A DNA stretch of 34,845 nt from Desulfobacteraceae bacterium. GTDB lineage: Bacteria; Desulfobacterota; Desulfobacteria; Desulfobacterales; JAJDOA01. Position numbers and translations under genes: made by a program. Of the stretch, positions 1,699 to 18,996 are shown piece by piece. The notes beneath the pieces are model-generated. The model saw nothing but the letters and a program-made list of their open reading frames with translations. It searched no databases and had not been told where the DNA came from. The stretch is from contig JAJDOA010000329.1 of assembly GCA_022340405.1 (NCBI GenBank), positions 1 through 34,845 on the forward strand, written 5' to 3'. Within the stretch, counting starts at the first letter, position 1, and the number at the start of each line of letters is the position of its first letter.

Positions 1699-2652
1699 TC
1701 ACTGAAGTCCCTTGAGCTGCTCCACGAAATCGGGCCAGAGCTTGTAAAGCGGGTGGTTCGGATCCTTGGGCAGTTCCTTGGTCTCCGCAAACACAGCCGT
1801 GGCCAGAAATGCCTCGGCTTCGGCCACCGCCGGAAGGATGCGGGTGGCTCCGGCCATGGGTCCGGAGAAAATCATGTCGTGGTAGTAGAAGGCCGACAGT
1901 CCCTCCAGGGCGGCGTCGGTGGCAGCCCAGCCCTTGAACTCCATGCTCTCCTTGAAGCGCTTTAGGTCCATGTAGGACCCGTTGCTGGGGGCGCTGGCCG
2001 TCGGGTATCCCCATTTTTCCTTGATCAGCCGGTTGGCGACACCGCAAAAGGCCGTGGCCGGACCGTTCATGACGGAGGTGTCCACAAAGATGCTTTCGAA
2101 CTTGGCGCCCACCTTGTCGATGGCGTCCAGCAGTTTCTGGGTACCCGTGATCCGGCCCGACGGCATCTGGTCCTCTTGGTCGAAGGACACCAGCAGCACG
2201 TGCTTGACACCCATGTCGGCGATCTCTTTGATCTCGGTCTCCAGGTCCTGCTCCCAAACCGTCAGGCTGTTGTAGAACATCCGGTCCATCAGACCCTTTT
2301 CGGCGCAATAGGCAGCGCCGGCCAGCTTGGGCTTCATCACCCACGCGTCGATGCAAAAGGGCATGCTGCTGTTCTCCACGACGAAATCGATGAAGCGTTT
2401 GAACTCCTCACCGGTGTTGGCTACGACGTCGGCCATGCCCGGAACGCCGGTTTCGGCGGTCAGGCGCTCCTGTGTCTGGAGCAGTTCAGCGGCCCGCTTT
2501 TCGTCGAACCCCTCCTTGCGCTTGCCGGTGAACACCTTGTCGCCCTTTTGAAAAATCGAGCTGACACAGACGCAGGGATGGTCTCCGGGCTGTCCGCCGA
2601 ACTTGACGCCGCCCACTTCGCAAACCTTCTGCTCGGTGCTGAAACGAAACAT
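1699..2652 (-). CDS. MtrH-family methylcorrinoid:pterin methyltransferase
   Basis: This 317-residue protein matches the family of subunit H of methanogen tetrahydromethanopterin S-methyltransferase. The N-terminus (MFRFSTEQKVCEVGGVKFGG followed by QPGDHPCVCVSSIF) is the family hallmark, and the IKEKWGYPTASAPSN stretch falls at the usual place. The other Mtr subunits are absent, so this is a free-standing enzyme. With a corrinoid protein and a UroD-like methyltransferase next to it, it probably passes the methyl group from methyl-Co(III) corrinoid to tetrahydrofolate or a similar pterin for oxidation. The start was set at MFRF because the strong Shine-Dalgarno GGAGG lies inside the five codons of a possible upstream ATG. 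It is the first gene of a three-gene operon. Acceptor identity is inferred. Confidence 0.88.
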   Translation of the reverse strand: MFRFSTEQKVCEVGGVKFGGQPGDHPCVCVSSIFQKGDKVFTGKRKEGFDEKRAAELLQTQERLTAETGVPGMADVVANTGEEFKRFIDFVVENSSMPFCIDAWVMKPKLAGAAYCAEKGLMDRMFYNSLTVWEQDLETEIKEIADMGVKHVLLVSFDQEDQMPSGRITGTQKLLDAIDKVGAKFESIFVDTSVMNGPATAFCGVANRLIKEKWGYPTASAPSNGSYMDLKRFKESMEFKGWAATDAALEGLSAFYYHDMIFSGPMAGATRILPAVAEAEAFLATAVFAETKELPKDPNHPLYKLWPDFVEQLKGLQ

Positions 2653-2852
2653 GTCACCCTCCTCCATGGTTGAAAGTCATGCAGATAAACGATCGGCTCG
2701 AAGCGTTGGTTGGAGATTGCCTATGGGATGAAGATACGGCATATCGGTTGTTTATTAGTCGAAGAGCAGGGGATTTGGATATCGTCCAAAGGTTGATTTT
2801 TGCAGAGGGTGCAGATGATTTTGCGGCAGGCGGTTTTCGGGCGGGAGCAACG
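2653..2852 (-). promoter_or_regulatory. Leader/promoter region of the methyltransferase operon
   Basis: This is a 200-base gap between the response regulator stop and the MtrH-family start, and it is more A+T-rich than its surroundings. It must hold the promoter of the methyltransferase operon unless that operon is read through from the signalling genes. It contains a perfect 6-bp inverted repeat with a five-base spacer (TTTGGA-cgata-TCCAAA, 2774-2790), a possible operator. I found no convincing sigma-70 pair and no sigma-54 GG-N10-GC element. Confidence 0.35.
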
Positions 2853-7125: not shown

Positions 7126-8106
7126 ATGCCTGCTGCCACCGATGCATCCGAAAGAACGGCCGTGGTGCTGCTGAGTGGATTCCTGGGCGCGGGAAAAACC
7201 ACCCTGCTCCGGCGGGTCCTTTCCTGGGAAACCGACTTGACCGGAACCGTGGTGATCGTCAACGAGTTCGGCGAGGTGGGGATCGACGGAACCCTGTTGA
7301 AAGACGCCGCCGGCTCCGACATGGTGGAATTGACCAGCGGCTGCATCTGCTGCACCCTCAGCAGCGATCTGAAGCAATCCATTCTGGGCATCTGGGACCG
7401 TCTGTCCCCCAAACGCATTCTCATCGAGGCCACCGGCGTCGCCGATCCCACGGCCATCGCCGACGTGTTGTCCGAGTCGGACATGGCCGATCGCATGCGG
7501 CTGGAAAAGACCGTCACCGTATTGGATGCCGACTTTTGGGAGGCTCGCGAGGTATTCGGTCCGCTGTTCTACAACCAGTTGGAAACGGCCGATCTCATCC
7601 TGCTCAACAAAATCGACCTTGTCGACGCCGACCGGGTTCCCGCCTATCTGAAAGAAATTCACGAGACCGTACCCAACTGCCGGGTGGTGCCCACGATCCA
7701 CTGCCGGGTGGACCCGGAGACCCTCTGGTCCAAACCGGAGCGACAGAAAACGGTATTGCTCAAGCCCATGGAATTTTACCGCCCCGCCGCAATGCACCGG
7801 GAGGGGCACGGTCGCAATACGGATCGTGTGGACGCCTCCGGCTATGTCACCTTTACCTTCCGAACCGACCGACCGCTCCAAGAGGATCGCTTCCGTCTGT
7901 TTGCGCAGTCGCTTCCCTTCGAGGTCTTTCGCATGAAGGGTCCGGTACGGTTTTCCGAACGGTCTGCCATGATCAACCACGTGGGAGGCAAAAGCGACAT
8001 CTTTCCTTGGCCGGACGAGGGAGAAACCCTTCTGGCCTTCATCGGCTGGCACATCGAGGCGGAGGCAATATTGGAACGGCTGCGTGGCTGCGTGGTCGGG
8101 GAGTGA
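7126..8106 (+). CDS. CobW/COG0523-family GTPase (metallochaperone)
   Basis: This 326-residue G3E GTPase has Walker A GFLGAGKTT near residues 18-26. The metal-binding C73-x-C75-C76 motif (GCICCTL), the guanine-specificity motif NKID and a C-terminal CobW domain are also present. Family members deliver Zn, Co or other metals to client enzymes with GTP hydrolysis. The ATG at MPAATDAS was chosen because the upstream in-frame sequence overlaps the promoter and leader. It is first in an operon with a SUMF1-fold and a NorD-like VWA protein. Together with the CbbQ-type ATPase on the other strand, this suggests metal-centre assembly. No zinc-starvation operator was recognised, so the metal is open. 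Confidence 0.92.
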   Translation: MPAATDASERTAVVLLSGFLGAGKTTLLRRVLSWETDLTGTVVIVNEFGEVGIDGTLLKDAAGSDMVELTSGCICCTLSSDLKQSILGIWDRLSPKRILIEATGVADPTAIADVLSESDMADRMRLEKTVTVLDADFWEAREVFGPLFYNQLETADLILLNKIDLVDADRVPAYLKEIHETVPNCRVVPTIHCRVDPETLWSKPERQKTVLLKPMEFYRPAAMHREGHGRNTDRVDASGYVTFTFRTDRPLQEDRFRLFAQSLPFEVFRMKGPVRFSERSAMINHVGGKSDIFPWPDEGETLLAFIGWHIEAEAILERLRGCVVGE

Positions 8107-9218: not shown

Positions 9219-11297
9219 GTGTTCGGAATGAAGCGCTCCGGAACCTTCCTGCCCATTTCCGAACGCAGGGAGAATATCCGCCGGCAGGCCGCCCACGCCG
9301 TCCGGGATGCCGGCGTGCCGCCAGCCGTCTGGGAAGAACAGGCGGACCGGCTGGCACGGCGGGCCCCTGCCGCGGCGGACGCGTTCCTGGCCGGCACCGC
9401 GGATGCCGTCTGCCACTGGTCGCCGGACCGTGTCGCGCTGTGGGGCCGCCAAGCGCTGGAAGCGCTGGAGGGGGAGGAGGCGCCGATGCCGGCCGGCATC
9501 GTCCGTGCCTATCTGCGGGCCTCGGTCCAGTTGCACCGCGAAATCCCGCTGGATCGCTGGCCCGAACTCCTGGCACTGGGGCGGCGGATCGCCGCGGTTT
9601 CCGAACCGGCTGCAGAGGCGTTTCTGCGCTATGGCGTTCGCCTGTGCCGCCAGCTCACCGCCGGTGAATCCCTCCAGTGGGTGCAGGAGGGCCTGCGCAG
9701 GGGTCCGGGCAGAGCGCTCCTGCTGGCCTGGTTCAACGGCACTTCGCCGGAGGCCCTCCGGCACCGCGACATCCTCCGGAAGAGCGTTCTCCTGGAGGAC
9801 AGCCTGCCCGTGTTGTCCCTCATGGTCCAGGCGTTCTGCGGCCGGGCGGTGCCGATCCAGTCCGGGAAAACCCTGAACGGACTGGCGGGATACACGGGCG
9901 GGGGGGCCACGGACGGCCGGGCCGTCTACCTTCCGGAAACGGCCCCGGACCGGGCCCGCTTCCAGCTCGCCGCACTGCACCAGGCCGTACTGATGGAGCG
10001 GATCGCGCAGGAGCCCGGCGTCGCCTGGATGGAGACGATGCCGGAACGCGCCCACGCCGCGGCGGACCGCGTCATGGCCCGCCGGCTGCCCGGCATGAAG
10101 CGGAGGATGCGGGAATCAGACGGTTCGCCTCCGGGATATCCGGACCGGGGGGCGCCTCTTCCGCAGGAGCCCCTGCCGTGGTGGGGAGAGCTGCTGCCGG
10201 ATCTGGTGCGCACCACCGATGCCGCCGTCCGGACCGTCCGGGAAAGAGCGGCGGCAGATTCCGAGCTTTCCCCGGAAATGATCGAGAGCCTCACCGCCGC
10301 CCTTCTGGCCCGGGGTCACCGGGACGGAGACGAAATATGGGCCCTGCTGCAGCAGATGGACCGCACCCAGTTCGCGTCCCCGGGACCGGAAGACCTTCCC
10401 CCGGAGATCGTCACCCGCACCTGGCCCGAGTGGGATATCTTTGCCGCGGGATACCGACGCAACTGGTGCTGTGTGCGGGAGCTGCCCGGCGATGAGAGCC
10501 CCAACGACTTCGTAGAGCGCCAGCGGCAGCGGCACGCGGGTTTGATCCGGCTGATCCGCCGACGATTCCTCCGGCTCAAGCCCGAGGCCCTCCTCAAGCG
10601 CAAGGCCCAGTCGGCGGGAGACGACCTGGATCCGGACGCGCTCATCACGGCCGTGATCGACCGACGAGCACGCTCGGAACTCACGGAAAACGTCTACATC
10701 CAACGCCGTATCAACCGGCGGGATGTGGCGACGATGTTCCTGCTGGACATCAGCGCCTCTTCCGGCGAGAAGGCGGGCGGGCGTCGGGTCATCGACATTC
10801 AAAGGGAGGCGCTGGTGCTCCTGTCCTCGGCCCTGGAGGCACTGGGGGACCGGTACGCGGTCTACGGGTTCCGATCGGAGGGCCGCCACCGGGTGGACAT
10901 GGTCGCCGTCAAATCCTTTGCCGAACCGTTCGGGGAGGCGTGCGCCGCACGCATCGGAAATCTAGAGCCCGGGGGGTTCACCCGCCTGGGCGCCGGAATC
11001 CGTCATGCCGCCCACCTGCTGGAGGCCGTGACGGCCCGGGTCCGACTGCTGATGATCCTCACCGACGGGAGACCCTACGATTACGAGTACGGCGACCTGG
11101 ACTACGCCGTGGCCGACACCCGCAACGCAGCCGACGCCCTGCAGCCGTCCCGGATCCATCCCTTCGTCATCACTTCCGACCGGGAGGGGGCCGACTATCT
11201 GGAACGCATGGTACCCGGAGCGGCGAGCGTGATCCTGCCGCGGGTGGAGCGCCTGCCCGACCTGCTGCCTCGGCTCTATCGGCGGCTGACGATGTAG
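9219..11297 (+). CDS. NorD/CbbO-like von Willebrand factor A protein
   Basis: This protein of about 690 residues has a long helical N-terminal region and a C-terminal VWA domain of the NorD/CbbO type. The MIDAS metal site is complete: D510-x-S512-x-S514 (LLDISASS), T588 (GGFTRLG) and D616 (ILTDGRPYDYEYGD). The ending (PRVERLPDLLPRLYRRL) is also typical. Partners of this class work with a CbbQ/NorQ MoxR-type AAA+ ATPase to remodel a client, for example Rubisco or the FeB site of nitric-oxide reductase. That ATPase is encoded here at 12869-13675 on the opposite strand. Neither Rubisco nor NO reductase is in the window. The start is GTG at 9219 or ATG at 9228, both with weak ribosome sites. Confidence 0.88.
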   Translation: MFGMKRSGTFLPISERRENIRRQAAHAVRDAGVPPAVWEEQADRLARRAPAAADAFLAGTADAVCHWSPDRVALWGRQALEALEGEEAPMPAGIVRAYLRASVQLHREIPLDRWPELLALGRRIAAVSEPAAEAFLRYGVRLCRQLTAGESLQWVQEGLRRGPGRALLLAWFNGTSPEALRHRDILRKSVLLEDSLPVLSLMVQAFCGRAVPIQSGKTLNGLAGYTGGGATDGRAVYLPETAPDRARFQLAALHQAVLMERIAQEPGVAWMETMPERAHAAADRVMARRLPGMKRRMRESDGSPPGYPDRGAPLPQEPLPWWGELLPDLVRTTDAAVRTVRERAAADSELSPEMIESLTAALLARGHRDGDEIWALLQQMDRTQFASPGPEDLPPEIVTRTWPEWDIFAAGYRRNWCCVRELPGDESPNDFVERQRQRHAGLIRLIRRRFLRLKPEALLKRKAQSAGDDLDPDALITAVIDRRARSELTENVYIQRRINRRDVATMFLLDISASSGEKAGGRRVIDIQREALVLLSSALEALGDRYAVYGFRSEGRHRVDMVAVKSFAEPFGEACAARIGNLEPGGFTRLGAGIRHAAHLLEAVTARVRLLMILTDGRPYDYEYGDLDYAVADTRNAADALQPSRIHPFVITSDREGADYLERMVPGAASVILPRVERLPDLLPRLYRRLTM

Positions 11298-12022: not shown

Positions 12023-12796
12023 CTAGCCGGACGTCTCCCCTCTGAAAAGGCCCGCCGCCGCGCGGGAATTCATCTGGGACTCCAGCTTTCGCAGCCTGCG
12101 GTCGGTTCCCTCTTCAGCCATCTCCTTGACCACGGCCATCTTGGCCAGTACGGCCTTTCGGGCGCCCAGCAGCAGTGCGGCAAGGAGATAGCTGAAGTCC
12201 GAATGGTACTGATCTTCGAAACGGTCCCGGCATGGGCCGAATGGCTCGTCCAGGGCGTAGACCCCGGCCAGGACATCCATGATGTGCCGGTCGGAGGGCG
12301 GGGGCTGGGTGCGGCTCTCCACCTGGGTGCAGTAATCCATTTCCAGGGCCACCGCATCGTCCGCCACCCGGATGCCCAGTTGCTTCCAACTGCGGATCAG
12401 CTTCCTTTTGCCGTCGCGGTGCTGTCGGGTCCGGGACCGTCCGGCGGTGACACTCCACAGTCCGTAGGCCCGACAGGCAAAGGGCCGACGGGGGTAGATG
12501 GAGCAGCCCCCTTCCGCCTCGAGGAAAGGACACCCCGCCTGCCTGAGGGGGGTGGCCATATAGAAGGAGAGAAACCGCAGCAACAGCGCGTCTCTTCTCT
12601 TTTCCGGCATCTGCGCCATCGCGTCGATCCACTGGAGTGCCTCCAGAAGGGTCATCTCCGGCATGAACCGGCAGCAGACCCCCGGGGTGCCGCAGTGGCA
12701 TCGGGTGGCCGGAAGCCTTTCGTACTGCGCCTGCAGCGCAGAAAACGACTCCCGTCCGCGCCGCAGCGCACTCGACAACTCCTCGATGGTCAGCAT
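12023..12796 (-). CDS. YkgJ-family cysteine-cluster protein
   Basis: This protein of about 257 residues has the zinc/iron-chelating Cys cluster of the YkgJ (CxxCxxCC-like) family. The cysteines lie in RCHCGTPGVCCRFMPEM, AGCPFLEAEGGCSIYPRRPF and ACRAYGLW. The C-terminal half is helical and unrecognised. Family members are thought to bind a metal or Fe-S centre, with no settled function. It begins at ATG 12796, or at the GTG one codon earlier, after AGGA. It sits between the CbbQ-type ATPase and the PrmA-like methyltransferase on the same strand. This placement fits a role in metal handling for the NorD/CbbQ machine, which is inference. Confidence 0.85.
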   Translation of the reverse strand: MLTIEELSSALRRGRESFSALQAQYERLPATRCHCGTPGVCCRFMPEMTLLEALQWIDAMAQMPEKRRDALLLRFLSFYMATPLRQAGCPFLEAEGGCSIYPRRPFACRAYGLWSVTAGRSRTRQHRDGKRKLIRSWKQLGIRVADDAVALEMDYCTQVESRTQPPPSDRHIMDVLAGVYALDEPFGPCRDRFEDQYHSDFSYLLAALLLGARKAVLAKMAVVKEMAEEGTDRRLRKLESQMNSRAAAGLFRGETSG

Positions 12797-12868
12797 CACA
12801 ATGTCCTATGGGTTTCGTCCCGGATGTTTCACCGCAACCGTTCGCCGCCGCGAATCCGGAACACCTCT

Positions 12869-13675
12869 TCAGAATACCGCCTCCACGATTTCGGAGATGG
12901 CCTGCTGCATGGTCGGATCGTCGGTTACGGCGCGAACGATGCCCACCCGGCAGGCTGCCGGCACGGCGAGTCCGGCAGTCATGAGTTTGGCGGTGTAGAC
13001 CAGAAGGCGGGTGCTGACGCCCTCCTCCAGCCCCTGTTGGCGAAGGTTGCGCACCATCTGCCCGAGGCTGACCAGCTGCCGTGCCGTATCGGCGTCGATG
13101 CCCGTTTCCCGGACCAGGATGTCCGACTCCGTATCGGGGGGCGGGTAATCGAAATCCACCGCCACGAACCGCTGGCGGGTGGAGTGCTTCAGCTCCTTGG
13201 TCACGCTCTGGTAGCCGGGATTGTAGGAAAGCACCAGCAGAAAGTCGGGATGGCACGGGACAAACCGCCCCCTTTTTTCCTGCGGGAGGATGCGCCGGTC
13301 GTCCGTGAGGGGGTGGATGACCACCGTGGTGTCCTTGCGGGCCTCCACCACCTCGTCCAGATAGCAGAGGGCGCCGTGGCGTGCGGCCAGGCTCAACGGC
13401 CCGTCCGCCCAAACGGTTTCGTCCCCTTTCAGCAGAAAACGTCCCACCAGATCGGCTGCCGTGAGGTCTTCGTGGCAGGCGATGGTCACCAGCGGCCGAT
13501 GCAGCCGCCAGGCCATGTGCTCCAGAAAACGGGTCTTCCCGCAGCCGGTCGGCCCCTTCAGCAGAACGGGCAGCCGGAGCTGGGCGGCGGTCAGAAACAC
13601 CTCGACCTCGTCGTTCACCGGCAGGTAGAAGGGCTCGCTGGCGAAGCGGTGTTCGTGGAGTGCGGGGTCCGTCAC
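12869..13675 (-). CDS. CbbQ/NirQ/NorQ-family MoxR AAA+ ATPase
   Basis: This 268-residue AAA+ ATPase has Walker A GPTGCGKT (41-48), ITACHEDLTAADLVGRF-like pore-side sequence, Walker B CYLDEVVEA and DTTVVIHPLTDDRRILP. VVSYNPGYQ-type sensor sequence (LSYNPGYQSVTKELK) and STRQRFVA are also present. These are close to the CbbQ/NorQ signatures. Such ATPases form rings that act with a VWA partner to activate or load metal into a client enzyme. The likely partner is the NorD-like protein at 9219-11297, unusually encoded on the opposite strand. The start is GTG with GGAG about ten bases upstream. It follows the SMC-like ATPase gene by 31 bases. Confidence 0.93.
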   Translation of the reverse strand: MTDPALHEHRFASEPFYLPVNDEVEVFLTAAQLRLPVLLKGPTGCGKTRFLEHMAWRLHRPLVTIACHEDLTAADLVGRFLLKGDETVWADGPLSLAARHGALCYLDEVVEARKDTTVVIHPLTDDRRILPQEKRGRFVPCHPDFLLVLSYNPGYQSVTKELKHSTRQRFVAVDFDYPPPDTESDILVRETGIDADTARQLVSLGQMVRNLRQQGLEEGVSTRLLVYTAKLMTAGLAVPAACRVGIVRAVTDDPTMQQAISEIVEAVF

Positions 13676-13706: not shown

Positions 13707-14687
13707 TCAGCAGCATTTGTACAGCCGGAGCAGACGTTCGTCCATTACGAAATAGAATTTCATGAACGAGGACCCGTCGAAGCGCGTCCGTACTCCGTGC
13801 AGGGTGTTGGCCAACTCGATGGTGCTGCGCAGATGCGTGATCATGATGAGTTGCTTTTCGGCAGCCACATCCTTCAGGAACGCCTGCATGGATTTGTGGT
13901 TCGTGTAGTCCAGGGAGGGCTCCACTTCGTCCAGGAGGAAAAACGGGCTTTCCAGCTCGTGGAAAACGGCCAGCTTTAGCGCCAGGCTGGTGATGGCCTT
14001 TTCCCCCCCGGAGAGCTGGTGGGCCCTGCGCCTACGGTTGCCGGGAAGGTTGGCTTCGATTTCGAGCCCCCGTTTCCCGTTCTGGGAAATCATTCCCAGA
14101 CCCACCTCCGCAAGGGGCATGAGGTGGCCCATGTAGCGCACGAACCGTTCGGCGATATCGCCGTGCAGCCGACGCACGGCTTCGGACTCCTCCACCAAAC
14201 CCAGCAGCGCGGTGACAGACGAGAACCGCTGTCGGGGCGGAAGGAGCAGAATGTCGTTGATCTCTTCCTGGCGAACGATGGTTTTCAGTGACTGGCGCAG
14301 TTGAAAATCCTCCAGCCGGTGTCGGTACTGCTCCCGGGAATAGGTCTTCCCGTCGATGCGGTACCGCTCCCTGCCCTCCCGCGGGGTTTCCCGCGAAAGG
14401 CGGACCCGGGTCGCATTCTCTTCCGGTCCGTCCCGGAGGATCAGTTCGATGAAAAACCGCTCGGCCGGGGGCGTGTTCTTGCTGCCCGCAAAAAATAGCT
14501 CGTCCCGATCGTAGCAGCGCACGCGATCCAGCCGGTCCTCGCCCAGGGCCCATACGATGGCGTCGAGGATGTTGGACTTGCCGACGCCGTTGTTGCCGAT
14601 GACGACGCCGATTCCCGGCTGGAATCCCATTTCCGTTTTCTCGGAAAAGGATTTGAACCCTTCGATGTGGACCTCTTCCAGAATCAT
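13707..14687 (-). CDS. Coil-less SMC/RecF-type ABC ATPase
   Basis: This 326-residue protein contains both halves of an SMC-type head. N-terminal motifs are IEGFKSFSEKTE, typical of SMC proteins, and Walker A GNNGVGKSN (31-39). C-terminal motifs are the ABC signature QLSGGEKAI and Walker B FFLLDEVEPSLD, followed by MITHLRSTIELAN. Only about 190 residues separate them, so the long coiled coil and hinge of true SMC, Rad50 or SbcC proteins are missing. It therefore cannot be a chromosome condensin. It more likely acts as a dimeric switch ATPase. The ATG lies one base after the stop of the selenoprotein gene, and the CbbQ-type ATPase follows. Function is unknown. Confidence 0.88.
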   Translation of the reverse strand: MILEEVHIEGFKSFSEKTEMGFQPGIGVVIGNNGVGKSNILDAIVWALGEDRLDRVRCYDRDELFFAGSKNTPPAERFFIELILRDGPEENATRVRLSRETPREGRERYRIDGKTYSREQYRHRLEDFQLRQSLKTIVRQEEINDILLLPPRQRFSSVTALLGLVEESEAVRRLHGDIAERFVRYMGHLMPLAEVGLGMISQNGKRGLEIEANLPGNRRRRAHQLSGGEKAITSLALKLAVFHELESPFFLLDEVEPSLDYTNHKSMQAFLKDVAAEKQLIMITHLRSTIELANTLHGVRTRFDGSSFMKFYFVMDERLLRLYKCC

Positions 14688-14688
14688 T

Positions 14689-14985
14689 TCACTCGTCCCG
14701 GTTTTTGGCGGTGAACCGACGTTGGATCTCGGCGATCATCTCCTCCTGCATGGGGATCAGAGATTCGTAGACCAGCTCGTCGTCCAGGGCCACGCTGGGA
14801 AGGGATTTGGCCTTGAGTTCCCGAAACCGCTGGACGCCCTCGCGTGTGCGCATGTCCCACTCGCGCACCTCGATGATCTCTTGAATCTCCTGCGGTAAAA
14901 CCTTTACCGACTCCGCCATATAGACGCAGGCGACTCACTGGTTGAAATCGGTCAACAGCACGTCCACCACAACTGGCTGCGACAT
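14689..14985 (-). CDS. Thioredoxin-like selenoprotein with UxxC motif (in-frame TGA read as Sec)
   Basis: Conventional translation yields only a 76-residue piece starting at 14919. Extending the frame upstream gives a 98-residue protein beginning MSQPVVVDVLL from an ATG (14985) with an excellent GGGAGG ribosome site. It is interrupted only by TGA at codon 17 (14935-14937). Read as selenocysteine, the sequence is FNQ-U-VAC: a UxxC redox motif after the first beta strand, as in thioredoxin/glutaredoxin-fold proteins. The remainder fits that fold, with LKAKSLPSVALDDELVYES including the cis-Pro region. A SECIS-like hairpin lies 26-42 bases after the TGA. The gene sits between the TSCPD-domain gene and the SMC-like ATPase. 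The alternative is a broken gene or a start at 14919, which would lose the redox motif. Confidence 0.82.
14893..14909 (-). promoter_or_regulatory. Bacterial SECIS hairpin
   Basis: On the minus-strand mRNA, CGGUAAA-GGU-UUUACCG forms a perfect 7-bp stem with a three-base GGU apical loop. The loop lies 33-35 bases after the in-frame UGA. Known bacterial SECIS elements lie inside the coding region just after UGA and need a G (often GU) in a small apical loop at about this distance. The match supports Sec insertion by SelB. Confidence 0.75.
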
Positions 14986-15025
14986 GTAACCTCCCGTTTT
15001 CATATATTTTTCCGACAACTGCTTT

Positions 15026-15982
15026 TCAATCCCGAGATAGCGGGATCCTCTCCAAACGCAGCTGTCCCGCATGCTCCTCCAGCATCCCCCACCCGGGCTT
15101 GCGGGGGCCCGCCAACGGACCCACCCGGACGAAGTCCACGCCGCCGACCTGCCAGTGCCCCCAGCCTCCGCCTTGGGCGAACACCACGATACCGGCCTCG
15201 AACTGCGGCGTCATGGCCTCCAGAGCTGGAAACACGGACGTGTCCTGCATACAGCAGGTCATGGAAAATACCATGTTCATCTCCAGGGCAAAGGGATCGA
15301 AGTCCGAGAAACCCTGCAGATGCTGAAGAAAATCACCGGTAAACGCGACACCTATCCGCTCTCCGAGCCGGAAACGAAGCGCCTGGGGCAGCCGTAGAAG
15401 CCAGTCGCGCCTGCGATTGGAAAGCGGCGGCAAACCCGCCGGCTCCTCGCGCAGAGCATACCGCCAATCCCGCTCGCCCTGCAGCAGAATGACGTCCGTT
15501 TTGCCGAGGTCTCGGATCCAATCCTCGTTTTCCGCCGCATCGCCCGTGATGTTTCCCATGCAGATCGCGGCGTCCGGCCGCCTTCTGCCCAGCTCCGCCA
15601 GAAGCCTTTCCCACAGTCCAGGCTGGCCGGCCGGATCGGCAACCACACCGATACGGTGAAGGGGCTCCTCAATGCGGTGAAGGCGGAACGATTCCATCGG
15701 AGCCAGCTCACCGGACCGGACGGCCAGCAGCGCCGCGGCAAGCTGGTCCGGGCAGGAGGTGTCGTTGCGGCACGCGATGCCGTCCAGCTTCTCCACCACG
15801 GTATCCAGCAGCTGGTCCTCCAGCAGGCGGCTCACCAGCTGCGCGTTTCCCGGGCAACCGCCGCCGATGAATCGCACGTTTTTCAGGCGATTTTCCTGAA
15901 GCTGGAAATGGATCTCCTGGGGACAAACCCCGGTGGTGCGATAGATGAAACGTTGCACTTTGGCTGCTTCGGTTGCGCTCAT
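15026..15982 (-). CDS. TSCPD-domain protein fused to a degenerate metallophosphoesterase-like domain
   Basis: The N-terminal part (about 10-90) is a TSCPD domain: RFIYRTTGVCPQEIHFQ, RFIGGGCPGNAQLVSRLLED and CRNDTSCPDQLAAAL with conserved cysteines. Small free-standing TSCPD proteins and the tail of B12-dependent ribonucleotide reductase carry this module. The remaining 220 residues resemble a calcineurin-like phosphoesterase in order of motifs (GVVADPAG, CMGNITGD, LLQGERDW, GGGWGHW). The metal ligands are mostly replaced, for instance GNHD has become GERD, so catalysis is doubtful. I used the ATG at 15982 next to the domain; a GTG at 16057 is the longer alternative, and neither has a clear ribosome site. 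It lies 40 bases upstream of the selenoprotein gene, in the same direction. Confidence 0.75.
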   Translation of the reverse strand: MSATEAAKVQRFIYRTTGVCPQEIHFQLQENRLKNVRFIGGGCPGNAQLVSRLLEDQLLDTVVEKLDGIACRNDTSCPDQLAAALLAVRSGELAPMESFRLHRIEEPLHRIGVVADPAGQPGLWERLLAELGRRRPDAAICMGNITGDAAENEDWIRDLGKTDVILLQGERDWRYALREEPAGLPPLSNRRRDWLLRLPQALRFRLGERIGVAFTGDFLQHLQGFSDFDPFALEMNMVFSMTCCMQDTSVFPALEAMTPQFEAGIVVFAQGGGWGHWQVGGVDFVRVGPLAGPRKPGWGMLEEHAGQLRLERIPLSRD

Positions 15983-16265: not shown

Positions 16266-17255
16266 TCAATCCGTGGCCGGACGTCGAATCCCGGTAATGA
16301 CCTCACGGGAGAAATCGAACAGGGTCTCGTTGCAGTTGCCGCTGCGAAGCCGGACACGGGAGCCGTCTTCCACCCGGCCCACCACGGCGGCGGTGACGTC
16401 ATGCTCGGAAAACAGCGACACCACATCGCCGGCGTGGTGGGGAGAAACGGAGAGAATGAAGCCGAAGCTCTGGAAACAGAGAATCCATTGCTCCAGCGGT
16501 AGCGCCGGCGGACAGGGCAGGGCGTCCACATCGATAACGGCACCCACCCCGGAGTTTTCGACGAGAATGGCGGCCGTGCCCAAAAGGCCGGCGTTGCTCA
16601 CGTCCTTGGCCGCAAAGGCCAGTTCGTACTCGGCAATCAGCGGCAGGGCCTCCAGTCGGTGCCGGAGGGCTTCGGGGCTTTTGCCGGAATTGGCGTCCCA
16701 ACTGACCACGGACCGGCACCCGGCGCGCCCCTCCAGGTCCACGGCCACGACGAGGTCGTCGCCGGGCGCGGCACGGTGACTGCGCAGCAGCTTTTTCGCC
16801 CGGCCGACAATGGTGACGCTCAACGCCGGCTGATCGTCGGGGGCGTCCGGGTGCAGATGCCCTCCCAACATGGGAACGCGGAGTTTGTCGCACCCCTTGG
16901 TGATGCCCTCCACGATGCGCCGGCGCTGCTCGGGATTTCCACTGGCCAGGACGTTGACCAGTCCGAGGGGCCGGCCGCCCATGGCGTATATGTCGTTGAC
17001 GGTCGCCATCACCGATGCCTTGCCGGCGGCATAGGGCTCGTTGACCAGCAAGGTGGTCTGGATGCCGTCCGCCGCGACCAGGAGATAGTCGTCCTCCCAG
17101 GGCAACACGGCTGCGTCGTCTCCCCAGTTGGGCAGCGGGTTGCCGAACCAGTGCGTCTCCCGCAGGGTGGAGAACACATCCTGGATGGGCTGTTTTCGCC
17201 GGAGGCCGGGATAGTCTCGGACCCGTTCCACGATCTGCTGCAGGGAATCCGTCAT
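16266..17255 (-). CDS. AIR-synthase (PurM/SelD/HypE-fold) protein, sll0787-like
   Basis: This 329-residue protein has the PurM/ThiL/SelD ATP-binding fold. GDDAAVLPWEDDYLLVAADG is the nucleotide/Mg loop, followed by ATVNDIYAMGGRPLGLVNVL, MLGGHLHPD and KDVSNAGLLGTAAI. It lacks the N-terminal Cys/Sec catalytic loop of selenophosphate synthase. Its best fit is the sll0787 branch found in cyanobacterial and actinobacterial 'Nit1' clusters, because the adjacent gene encodes the radical SAM and GNAT members of the same cluster. The ATG overlaps the preceding gene's stop (ATGA), with GAGGAG upstream. The two genes are therefore translationally coupled. The substrate is unknown; an ATP-dependent phosphorylation or amidine-forming step is expected from the fold. 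Confidence 0.87.
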   Translation of the reverse strand: MTDSLQQIVERVRDYPGLRRKQPIQDVFSTLRETHWFGNPLPNWGDDAAVLPWEDDYLLVAADGIQTTLLVNEPYAAGKASVMATVNDIYAMGGRPLGLVNVLASGNPEQRRRIVEGITKGCDKLRVPMLGGHLHPDAPDDQPALSVTIVGRAKKLLRSHRAAPGDDLVVAVDLEGRAGCRSVVSWDANSGKSPEALRHRLEALPLIAEYELAFAAKDVSNAGLLGTAAILVENSGVGAVIDVDALPCPPALPLEQWILCFQSFGFILSVSPHHAGDVVSLFSEHDVTAAVVGRVEDGSRVRLRSGNCNETLFDFSREVITGIRRPATD

Positions 17256-18829
17256 GGGCTCCTCGTTTCGTCTTCTGCGGTGCGGGACCGCGTTCCATCG
17301 TCGGGCACCCGGTCCAGATCGGCCTGCATCGGGCGGTGGGGATGCCCGCAGAGGATCTCCGTCGGGCCGATCGCCGTCCAGCCGAGCTTTTGGAAAAAAT
17401 GGACGTTTTTCTCTTGAATGTGAGCGGTAAAAACGGTGCATCCCTTTTTCTTGACCCGGCGCATGGCTTCCCGGACCAGTCCCGCTCCGATCCGATAGAT
17501 CCGTGCGTCGCGATCCACGGCCAGACGGCTGCCGATCCAGTGGCCGTTGCCTCTTTCCGGGTCGGGGAACACCCGCACGGTCCCCACCACACGGCCGTCC
17601 TGCTCGGCCACCAGGTGGATGCTGCAATCGTCGTGTTCGTCCCGGTCCGAGCCGGCGAACAGCCCCTGCTCCTCGACGAAGACCGCGTGCCGGATGGCGC
17701 GGGCTCTGTCCAGCTCCACTTCGTTTCGCGCCGTATGGATCCGGATCCGGGCCGCGGGCACTTCGTACAAGGCCAACGCCGAACAGGCACCGCAGCGCAC
17801 GCACCCTGCCCGGCAGTTTGTTGCGCTCAGCCCCTTGCGTCGCAGCACTTGGGCCACCGCCTCGTAGACGGCTTCCATGACATCGGGCTCGGGCGGCCGG
17901 TGGTTCTGCATCCAGGATCCGGGAACGGGGCGCAGCGGCACCACGTAGGGGTAGACACCCAGATCCGCCAGCACTTCGCTTCCGGAAACGATGGACTCCG
18001 GGGGTTCGCCGAGACCGGCGATCAAGAAGCTGCTCACCTGGTTGACGCCAAAAAGAGCGACGGCCCGACGCCACGCGGCTTCATATCGCTCCAGGCCGAG
18101 GGCCGCTTTCGCCGGCGCGACACGCTGCAGCGTCGGCCTATCGAAGCACTCGATGTGGATGCCCACCGTGTCCACCCCGGCTGCCAACAGCCGCTCCATG
18201 GCGTCCAGGTCCGGGGGCGGTGAAAACTGGACGTGAACCGGAAGGTCCGCCGCCGCTTTAACGGCGGCGGCGCAACGCGCCAGAGCATCGATTTCCGAGC
18301 CCGGAGGGTCGCCGACTCCGGTGGTGAGCACCGCGTGGCGGACACCGTCCAGTTCGGCGGCCCGACGCACCACCTCGCCAAGTTGCTCCGGGGTCTTTTG
18401 GGCGATGGTGGCGCCGCGCTCCAAGGAAACCTCGGTCGCGCAAAAGGCGCACCGCCGGGAGTGTCGCCAATGGAAACAGCGCTGCAGGACGGTGGTGGCG
18501 ATACAGTCTGTGCCGTGCAGCAGGGCGATCTTCCGGTAGCCGACGCCGTCGGCATCCGAAAACTCGTAAAACCGGGGATCGGGCACCGCGGATACGGAAG
18601 CGATCGGCTCGCCGTCCCGCAGCAGTTGCAGCCCGCCGCCGTCATCCTCGGCAAGGGAAAAGGGGGAGTCCGCCGTGTAGGCGGCACGGATGGGGACGTT
18701 GACCGCCGTCTCGCCGATCACCAGCGCCCTGCCCTCGGACGGTCCGGCACCCCCCTCCCGTCCCGTGAGGTTTCCGGGGACCCGCACCCCGAGGCTCTGT
18801 ATTTCGGTGACAATCCGCTTCACGTCCAT
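17252..18829 (-). CDS. Radical SAM (MSMEG_0568-like) - GNAT (MSMEG_0567-like) fusion protein
   Basis: This 525-residue protein has two parts. Residues about 1-365 form a radical SAM enzyme with an atypical cluster motif C118-x8-C127-x2-C130 (RCFHWRHSRRCAFCATEV), the downstream motif TTGVGDPPG and a C-terminal Cys-rich patch (CRAGCVRCGACSAL). These features are characteristic of the MSMEG_0568 family. Residues about 375-510 are a GNAT acetyltransferase of the MSMEG_0567/sll0786 type (RHAVFVEEQGLF, GRVVGTVRVFPD, FFQKLGW). In most genomes these are separate neighbouring genes; here they are fused. The start is the ATG at 18829 with AAGGTGA five bases upstream. It is coupled to the AIR-synthase-like gene. 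The usual nitrilase, flavoprotein and glycosyltransferase partners are not in the window. Confidence 0.88.
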   Translation of the reverse strand: MDVKRIVTEIQSLGVRVPGNLTGREGGAGPSEGRALVIGETAVNVPIRAAYTADSPFSLAEDDGGGLQLLRDGEPIASVSAVPDPRFYEFSDADGVGYRKIALLHGTDCIATTVLQRCFHWRHSRRCAFCATEVSLERGATIAQKTPEQLGEVVRRAAELDGVRHAVLTTGVGDPPGSEIDALARCAAAVKAAADLPVHVQFSPPPDLDAMERLLAAGVDTVGIHIECFDRPTLQRVAPAKAALGLERYEAAWRRAVALFGVNQVSSFLIAGLGEPPESIVSGSEVLADLGVYPYVVPLRPVPGSWMQNHRPPEPDVMEAVYEAVAQVLRRKGLSATNCRAGCVRCGACSALALYEVPAARIRIHTARNEVELDRARAIRHAVFVEEQGLFAGSDRDEHDDCSIHLVAEQDGRVVGTVRVFPDPERGNGHWIGSRLAVDRDARIYRIGAGLVREAMRRVKKKGCTVFTAHIQEKNVHFFQKLGWTAIGPTEILCGHPHRPMQADLDRVPDDGTRSRTAEDETRSP

Positions 18830-18996
18830 CGATTCACCTTGGATGAGCGGTAAGGACACCCCGATTCATCCCTGCGGCAGGGGTGGTGTACATCATTATC
18901 ATTGCCAAAGATTTAGGGGGCATCCCGTTCATCGGCGGCGCACCCTATCGCATCCGGCCTGCCTTGGCAATACCCGCACCCGCACTCCAAACGCCG

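Follow-up and report, generated by a model that had tools for sequence, protein, structure and literature searches.

Several selenocysteine (Sec)-containing thioredoxin-like proteins have been described in prokaryotes, and the one closest to the locus reported here is the HUIPC motif thioredoxin-like (seleno)protein (HUIPC_Trx_selen, NF047660), which has been attributed to Haft and Tolstoy 2025 (cited in PMC13188914) and appears in the available part of the prokaryotic selenoprotein table of a May 2026 review (PMC13188914). Among the rules that this review gives for bacterial SECIS elements (bSECIS) is a free energy of −7.5 kcal/mol or lower, a value for which the available passage leaves the folded length undefined. 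Methyl-selenium metabolism has been linked to gene clusters that combine corrinoid methyltransferases with corrinoid activators (PMC10418091). Here we analyzed a stretch of 34,845 nucleotides (positions 1-34,845 of contig JAJDOA010000329.1 of a Desulfobacteraceae metagenome-assembled genome (MAG), GCA_022340405.1; hereafter the window), in which positions 14689-14985 encode a real, previously unannotated thioredoxin-type selenocysteine protein.

An in-frame TGA in a thioredoxin-like gene

The features of the gene are the following:

14689-14985, minus strand: Sec-containing thioredoxin-like gene of 98 codons plus a TGA stop, motif DFNQUVACVYM
14935-14937, minus strand: in-frame TGA read as Sec17, at the predicted N-terminus of helix 1; TGA in 17/17 relatives, Cys in the paralogues
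14926-14928, minus strand: Cys20, the resolving Cys of UxxC, invariant in the orthologues and absent only from a divergent second copy (L022:6358-6630)
14990-14995, minus strand: ribosome-binding site GGGAGG, 4 nt 5′ of the ATG
14893-14909, minus strand: SECIS-like hairpin of 7 bp with a GGU loop, its apical loop 32 nt after the UGA, as considered under the bSECIS rules (PMC13188914)

Read on the minus strand from 14985 to 14689, the DNA gives MSQPVVVDVLLTDFNQ-U-VACVYMAESVK...KNRDE-stop, in which codon 17 is TGA (14937-14935) and another TGA serves as the regular stop. The complete 98-residue product is MSQPVVVDVLLTDFNQUVACVYMAESVKVLPQEIQEIIEVREWDMRTREGVQRFRELKAKSLPSVALDDELVYESLIPMQEEMIAEIQRRFTAKNRDE. 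The start context is GGGAGG-TTAC-ATG, and the original prediction had been right in describing a GGGAGG-ATG start, 16 codons, a TGA and V-A-C in one frame, while leaving the strand (minus) unmentioned. It had also foreseen that standard gene calling would report a 76-residue fragment, which we reproduced: ordinary ORF calling returns only a 76-aa ORF at 14689-14919, and the active site of the protein is removed in this way. That the standard callers predict exactly this ORF, and that Met23 is invariant, would be expected if there were no recoding and a 16-codon upstream ORF were followed by a separate 76-residue protein from Met23, but this reading is very improbable. No ribosome site precedes Met23, while GGGAGG precedes Met1; the residues VLLTDFxQ before the TGA are invariant through synonymous change; the separate protein would be left without strand 1 and the active site; and the Cys paralogues, which are continuous, read-through single ORFs, keep Met23 invariant as well, which makes it a structural residue.

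A scan of one genome per species over 84,980 species recovered 18 related loci, of which 17 include the active-site region, and in all 17 of these UxxC-bearing relatives codon 17 is TGA, with Cys in none. One of the scan patterns spanned the active site and used Cys codons there, the rest being placed elsewhere; a close Cys orthologue ought therefore to have been detected, yet none was seen in the 84,980 species. Homologues with Cys in place of Sec, which the original prediction had proposed as a check, are found in the QCxxC (QCAAC) paralogues, which are about 42% identical and in which Cys is aligned at the TGA codon. The relatives share 68-85% identity (best segment) with the window protein, and no full homologue begins at the position of 14919, a start that had been named as evidence against the gene; only a degraded second copy (L023) does. 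The carriers are about 20 anaerobic bacteria, mostly from sulfate-reducing lineages and mostly Desulfobacterota MAGs, and the TGA is kept in additional carriers outside the species-level scan. Isolates among them include Desulfatitalea alkaliphila M08but (L013) and Desulfofundulus thermobenzoicus DSM 14055 (L022), the latter of which we take to be a Firmicute; with the gene present in named isolates, direct testing is possible. The family adds to the bacterial selenoproteome and appears to be Sec-only, as no Cys orthologue was among the sequences found.

Among the 18 aligned genes, synonymous positions ahead of the TGA change more often than non-synonymous ones (VLLTDF-Q being invariant), which shows that the 16 upstream codons are translated in frame with the rest; the codons 3′ of the TGA likewise show change dominated by synonymous substitutions.

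Three copies depart from the common form. A second, tandem copy in Desulfofundulus (L022:6358-6630) has the TGA and the same hairpin, but its motif is UASG and the resolving Cys is lost. In L021:1270-1548 a second in-frame TGA replaces the conserved Trp codon 43, which could be an error, decay or a second Sec. Strain HSG9 carries a shortened second copy (L023:750-977) that keeps the hairpin, has lost the Sec codon and is fused to the end of a thioredoxin-like (Thioredoxin_3-type) gene.

The hairpin after the TGA and the Sec machinery

The hairpin CGGUAAA-GGU-UUUACCG lies 26-42 nt 3′ of the TGA and is formed by RNAfold, so that the perfect 7-bp stem with a GGU loop was placed and paired correctly in the original prediction. 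Its GGU loop, 7 bp and distance of 32 nt were compared with the bSECIS rules in the available part of PMC13188914. The free energy is −12.9 kcal/mol for 48 nt and −5.1 kcal/mol for the 17-nt hairpin core, and the stability by itself is unremarkable (z = −0.7, 48 nt). Across 19 sequences the stem is paired at 95.5%, compared with no more than 53% for slid partners, and an inner A-U pair is replaced by G-C in L020 (a compensatory change) and likewise in L054. The near invariance of the stem leaves little room for covariation, and as the counts were weak, synonymous-site conservation was used as the test instead. Synonymous change averages 0.14 in the hairpin codons 24-31 vs. 0.52 elsewhere (Mann-Whitney p = 2e−5, a guide only, as the columns come from related sequences). 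Codon 30 (Leu, in the stem) is TTA in 17/18 genes and codon 27 is GTA in 18/18, compared with 7% of Leu codons (TTA) and 14% (GTA) in the neighbouring ATPase genes. The hairpin is not kept in the QCAAC Cys paralogues, and Rfam scans of the gene region gave no match. The earlier judgement that the arrangement is hard to explain by chance is upheld by the TGA in 17/17 relatives and by the low synonymous change at the hairpin, while the z-scores of the hairpin energy proved uninformative. A divergent QUAACVYM relative with TGA (L056, G268:C153:19751-20032) is followed by a different hairpin, UGCU-GGC-AGCA, possibly a second SECIS form.

The source genome encodes SelB (375 bits), SelA (525 bits) and two SelD proteins, each of the selD genes with an in-frame TGA (G000:C220:1193-2110 and C276:7595-8512), together with HdrA matches bearing TGA and a HUIPC-type gene that likewise contains a TGA (C312, locus L029:12893-13180). 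A tRNA-Sec was not found in the source MAG (375 contigs, 94% complete), the selA and selB contigs included; it scores 74-76 bits in four of the five gene-carrying relatives searched and is absent from G002. The absence from the source MAG is probably an assembly gap. The proposed check for sel genes was hence answered by selA, selB and selD in the MAG itself and, for selC, by four of the five carriers; a lack of selB/selC had been put forward as an argument against the gene, and selB is present.

The missing tRNA-Sec is also what could be cited for a pseudogene, a sequencing error or UGA decoded as another amino acid, and these together have the smallest chance of all the readings that we weighed. 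The same TGA occurs in 17 independently assembled loci, two of them from named isolates, with purifying selection on both sides of it, while genes of the source genome, the Sec gene included, end normally at TGA, and the counterpart residue in the paralogues is Cys and not Trp. For Sec insertion at 14937-14935 the support is as strong as sequence by itself can give, and we regard the insertion as nearly certain. SelB and Sec-tRNA would decode the UGA of codon 17 by means of the hairpin 26-42 nt downstream, and this SelB-mediated decoding is strongly supported by the sequence evidence.

Predicted fold, gene neighbourhood and candidate partners

AlphaFold2, run on the alignment, predicted a thioredoxin fold (pLDDT 89, pTM 0.80) with the order beta-alpha-beta-alpha-beta-beta-alpha, in which Sec17 starts helix 1, the UxxC motif lies at that helix, and the invariant Pro63 sits just before strand 3, at the cis-Pro position. 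The closest PDB structures include thioredoxins and thioredoxin-like proteins (TM ~0.66), whereas sequence searches of Pfam and of the PDB gave no match. The C-terminal part had been called thioredoxin-like from the start, which agrees with the predicted fold; unseen at that stage were the distinctness of the family from ordinary thioredoxin and its own conserved operon. A thioredoxin-type redox function is very likely: Sec17 and Cys20 would make up a UxxC active site where helix 1 begins, and, as in the wider family, the selenolate would attack a dedicated partner at a disulfide or comparable bond, with Cys20 resolving the intermediate.

The neighbouring genes in the window are the following:

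13707-14687, minus strand: SMC/RecF-like, head-only ATPase ending in KCC-COOH (Pfam SMC_N), with conserved adjacency, tail and co-occurrence
15026-15982, minus strand: TSCPD domain plus calcineurin-type phosphoesterase fold, with four invariant Cys in the TSCPD part
12023-12799, minus strand: CxxCxxCC (YkgJ-like) protein, adjoining the ATPase in several relatives
7126-8106, plus strand: CobW-type GTPase, the window copy recognised by sequence, with relatives beside the Sec unit in most loci
1699-2667, minus strand: MtrH-type methyltransferase homologue, recognised by sequence

The order of the unit is TSCPD-phosphoesterase, Sec-thioredoxin and short SMC-like ATPase. The ATPase (326 aa) lies directly downstream of the Sec gene in 14/17 loci, with a single base between the stop of the Sec gene and the ATPase ATG in the window, and the TSCPD protein precedes the Sec gene in 13 of the 15 loci that extend far enough upstream. 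The ATPase has SMC head motifs and almost no middle region; C58 and the C-terminal KCC (13707-13715 in the window) are kept in all 13 aligned copies, and the Lys-Cys-Cys end may be a redox or metal site. In the phylum it occurs in 4/395 genomes, three of which also have the Sec gene (Fisher p = 4e−7); in the fourth, the contig opens so close to the ATPase, which starts at its base 2, that the neighbour is cut off. The TSCPD protein exceeds the TIGR03905 cut-off, and the fold of its C-terminal part resembles that of calcineurin-type phosphoesterases. We rejected a reading of the ATPase as part of a defence system: it gave one weak mad3-like match and otherwise only generic ATPase matches, and the neighbours tested gave no defence match.

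Other genes were recorded along the window. A CbbQ/NorQ-type AAA gene (12869-13675, minus strand) separates the SMC-like ATPase gene from the YkgJ-like one, and near it is a gene whose C-terminal part reads as VWA-like (9219-11297, plus strand). At 17252-18859 an MSMEG_0568-type radical SAM protein is fused to an MSMEG_0567-type GNAT domain, with an AIR-synthase-like gene following it.

The thioredoxin fold and the UxxC motif would suit a general-purpose Sec thioredoxin or a peroxidase-support protein with no dedicated partner; this is unlikely, being ill-suited to the narrow distribution, the identity of 68-87% and the strict co-occurrence with one ATPase. Genes for a CobW GTPase, an ATP:corrinoid adenosyltransferase, DUF1638 and MtrH are found near the Sec unit in relatives (MtrH-type in L007, L009, L011, L017 and L018), and from these corrinoid-related neighbours, together with the cluster around the Cys paralogue (below) and the published methyl-selenium clusters, we infer that the Sec protein takes part in corrinoid methyl transfer. 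Its most likely redox partners would be the two other proteins of the unit, the TSCPD-phosphoesterase, which is rich in Cys, and the SMC-like ATPase, whose C-terminus carries an invariant Cys-Cys. The unit as a whole appears to function in corrinoid (B12) methyl-transfer metabolism.

The same selenoprotein could instead act on the methyl-transfer machinery itself, i.e., a methyltransferase, a corrinoid activator or a methyl-Se/S/As substrate, rather than on the ATPase and TSCPD proteins. The DUF1638, MtrH and corrinoid adenosyltransferase genes near the unit speak for this, as do the Cys paralogues, whose cluster in the source genome holds RACo, an MtaA/CmuA-type methyltransferase, CobW GTPases, a thioredoxin reductase-like gene, a MIP channel, DUF2284 and two HUIPC-like genes; similar clusters are linked to methyl-selenium metabolism (PMC10418091). 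Against it, the tightest links of the Sec protein are with the TSCPD protein and the ATPase and not with any single methyltransferase, and we consider a partner in the methyl-transfer machinery a substantial minority possibility. The choice of the TSCPD and ATPase proteins as redox partners, drawn solely from gene neighbourhood and conserved cysteines, is tentative in its own right. As a whole, the account of a 98-residue thioredoxin-fold selenoprotein that would be decoded through its hairpin, act within its own unit and serve corrinoid methyl transfer is likely to a high degree. A more specific and rather doubtful version would make it the dedicated reductase of a new anaerobic module within B12-dependent methyl transfer, in which the selenol switches or recharges the coiled-coil-free SMC-like ATPase and the TSCPD-phosphoesterase. 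The three-gene unit, uncharacterised in any case, brings a selenol together with an SMC-like ATPase and a TSCPD-phosphoesterase close to corrinoid methyltransferase genes.

Comparison with known thioredoxin-like proteins

Among the NCBIfam models the window protein matches HUIPC_Trx_selen (NF047660) alone, at 43.7 bits against an equivalog cut-off of 105 bits, so it is not a member of that family, and no current NCBIfam model names it above cut-off. All 14 family members tested match the model as relatives (best E 9.5e−13), and judged by sequence the family is a sister of HUIPC_Trx_selen. Both are thioredoxin-like, have about 90 residues and a U/C-x-x-C-x-Y-M motif, and their genes are often side by side (L014, L015, L017, L020, L054); they differ in that identity is 25-28%, the HUIPC motif is absent and replaced by xQUxACVYM, and the middle region is shorter. 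HUIPC-like proteins with Cys occur (L019, L022), in contrast to the Sec family, in which no Cys orthologue was seen. In L054 four consecutive thioredoxin-like genes (reverse strand, 333-1549) carry QCAAC, CLPC, HUIPC (TGA) and QUIAC (TGA). No entry matching the family was found in the available part of the May 2026 review table (PMC13188914), or in those parts of deep-Sep (PMC12013277) and of the 2022 list (PMC9312934) that were available, and the literature searched held no mention of UVAC-type proteins. Measured against these lists and the HUIPC profile, we consider the family new, though of a known kind.

With Sec thioredoxin (PF00085), SaoT and other UxxC thioredoxin-like selenoproteins the window protein shares the fold, a UxxC motif where helix 1 begins, and the cis-Pro position, and it differs from them in having no Pfam or PDB sequence match. 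To our knowledge, the gene neighbours of SaoT and of the other UxxC thioredoxin-like selenoproteins are also different. The QCAAC (QCxxC) Cys paralogues of the RACo/MtaA/CobW clusters share with it 38-47% identity, a similar length and the same active-site position, but they have Cys instead of Sec, no such hairpin, other operon partners and a wider distribution.
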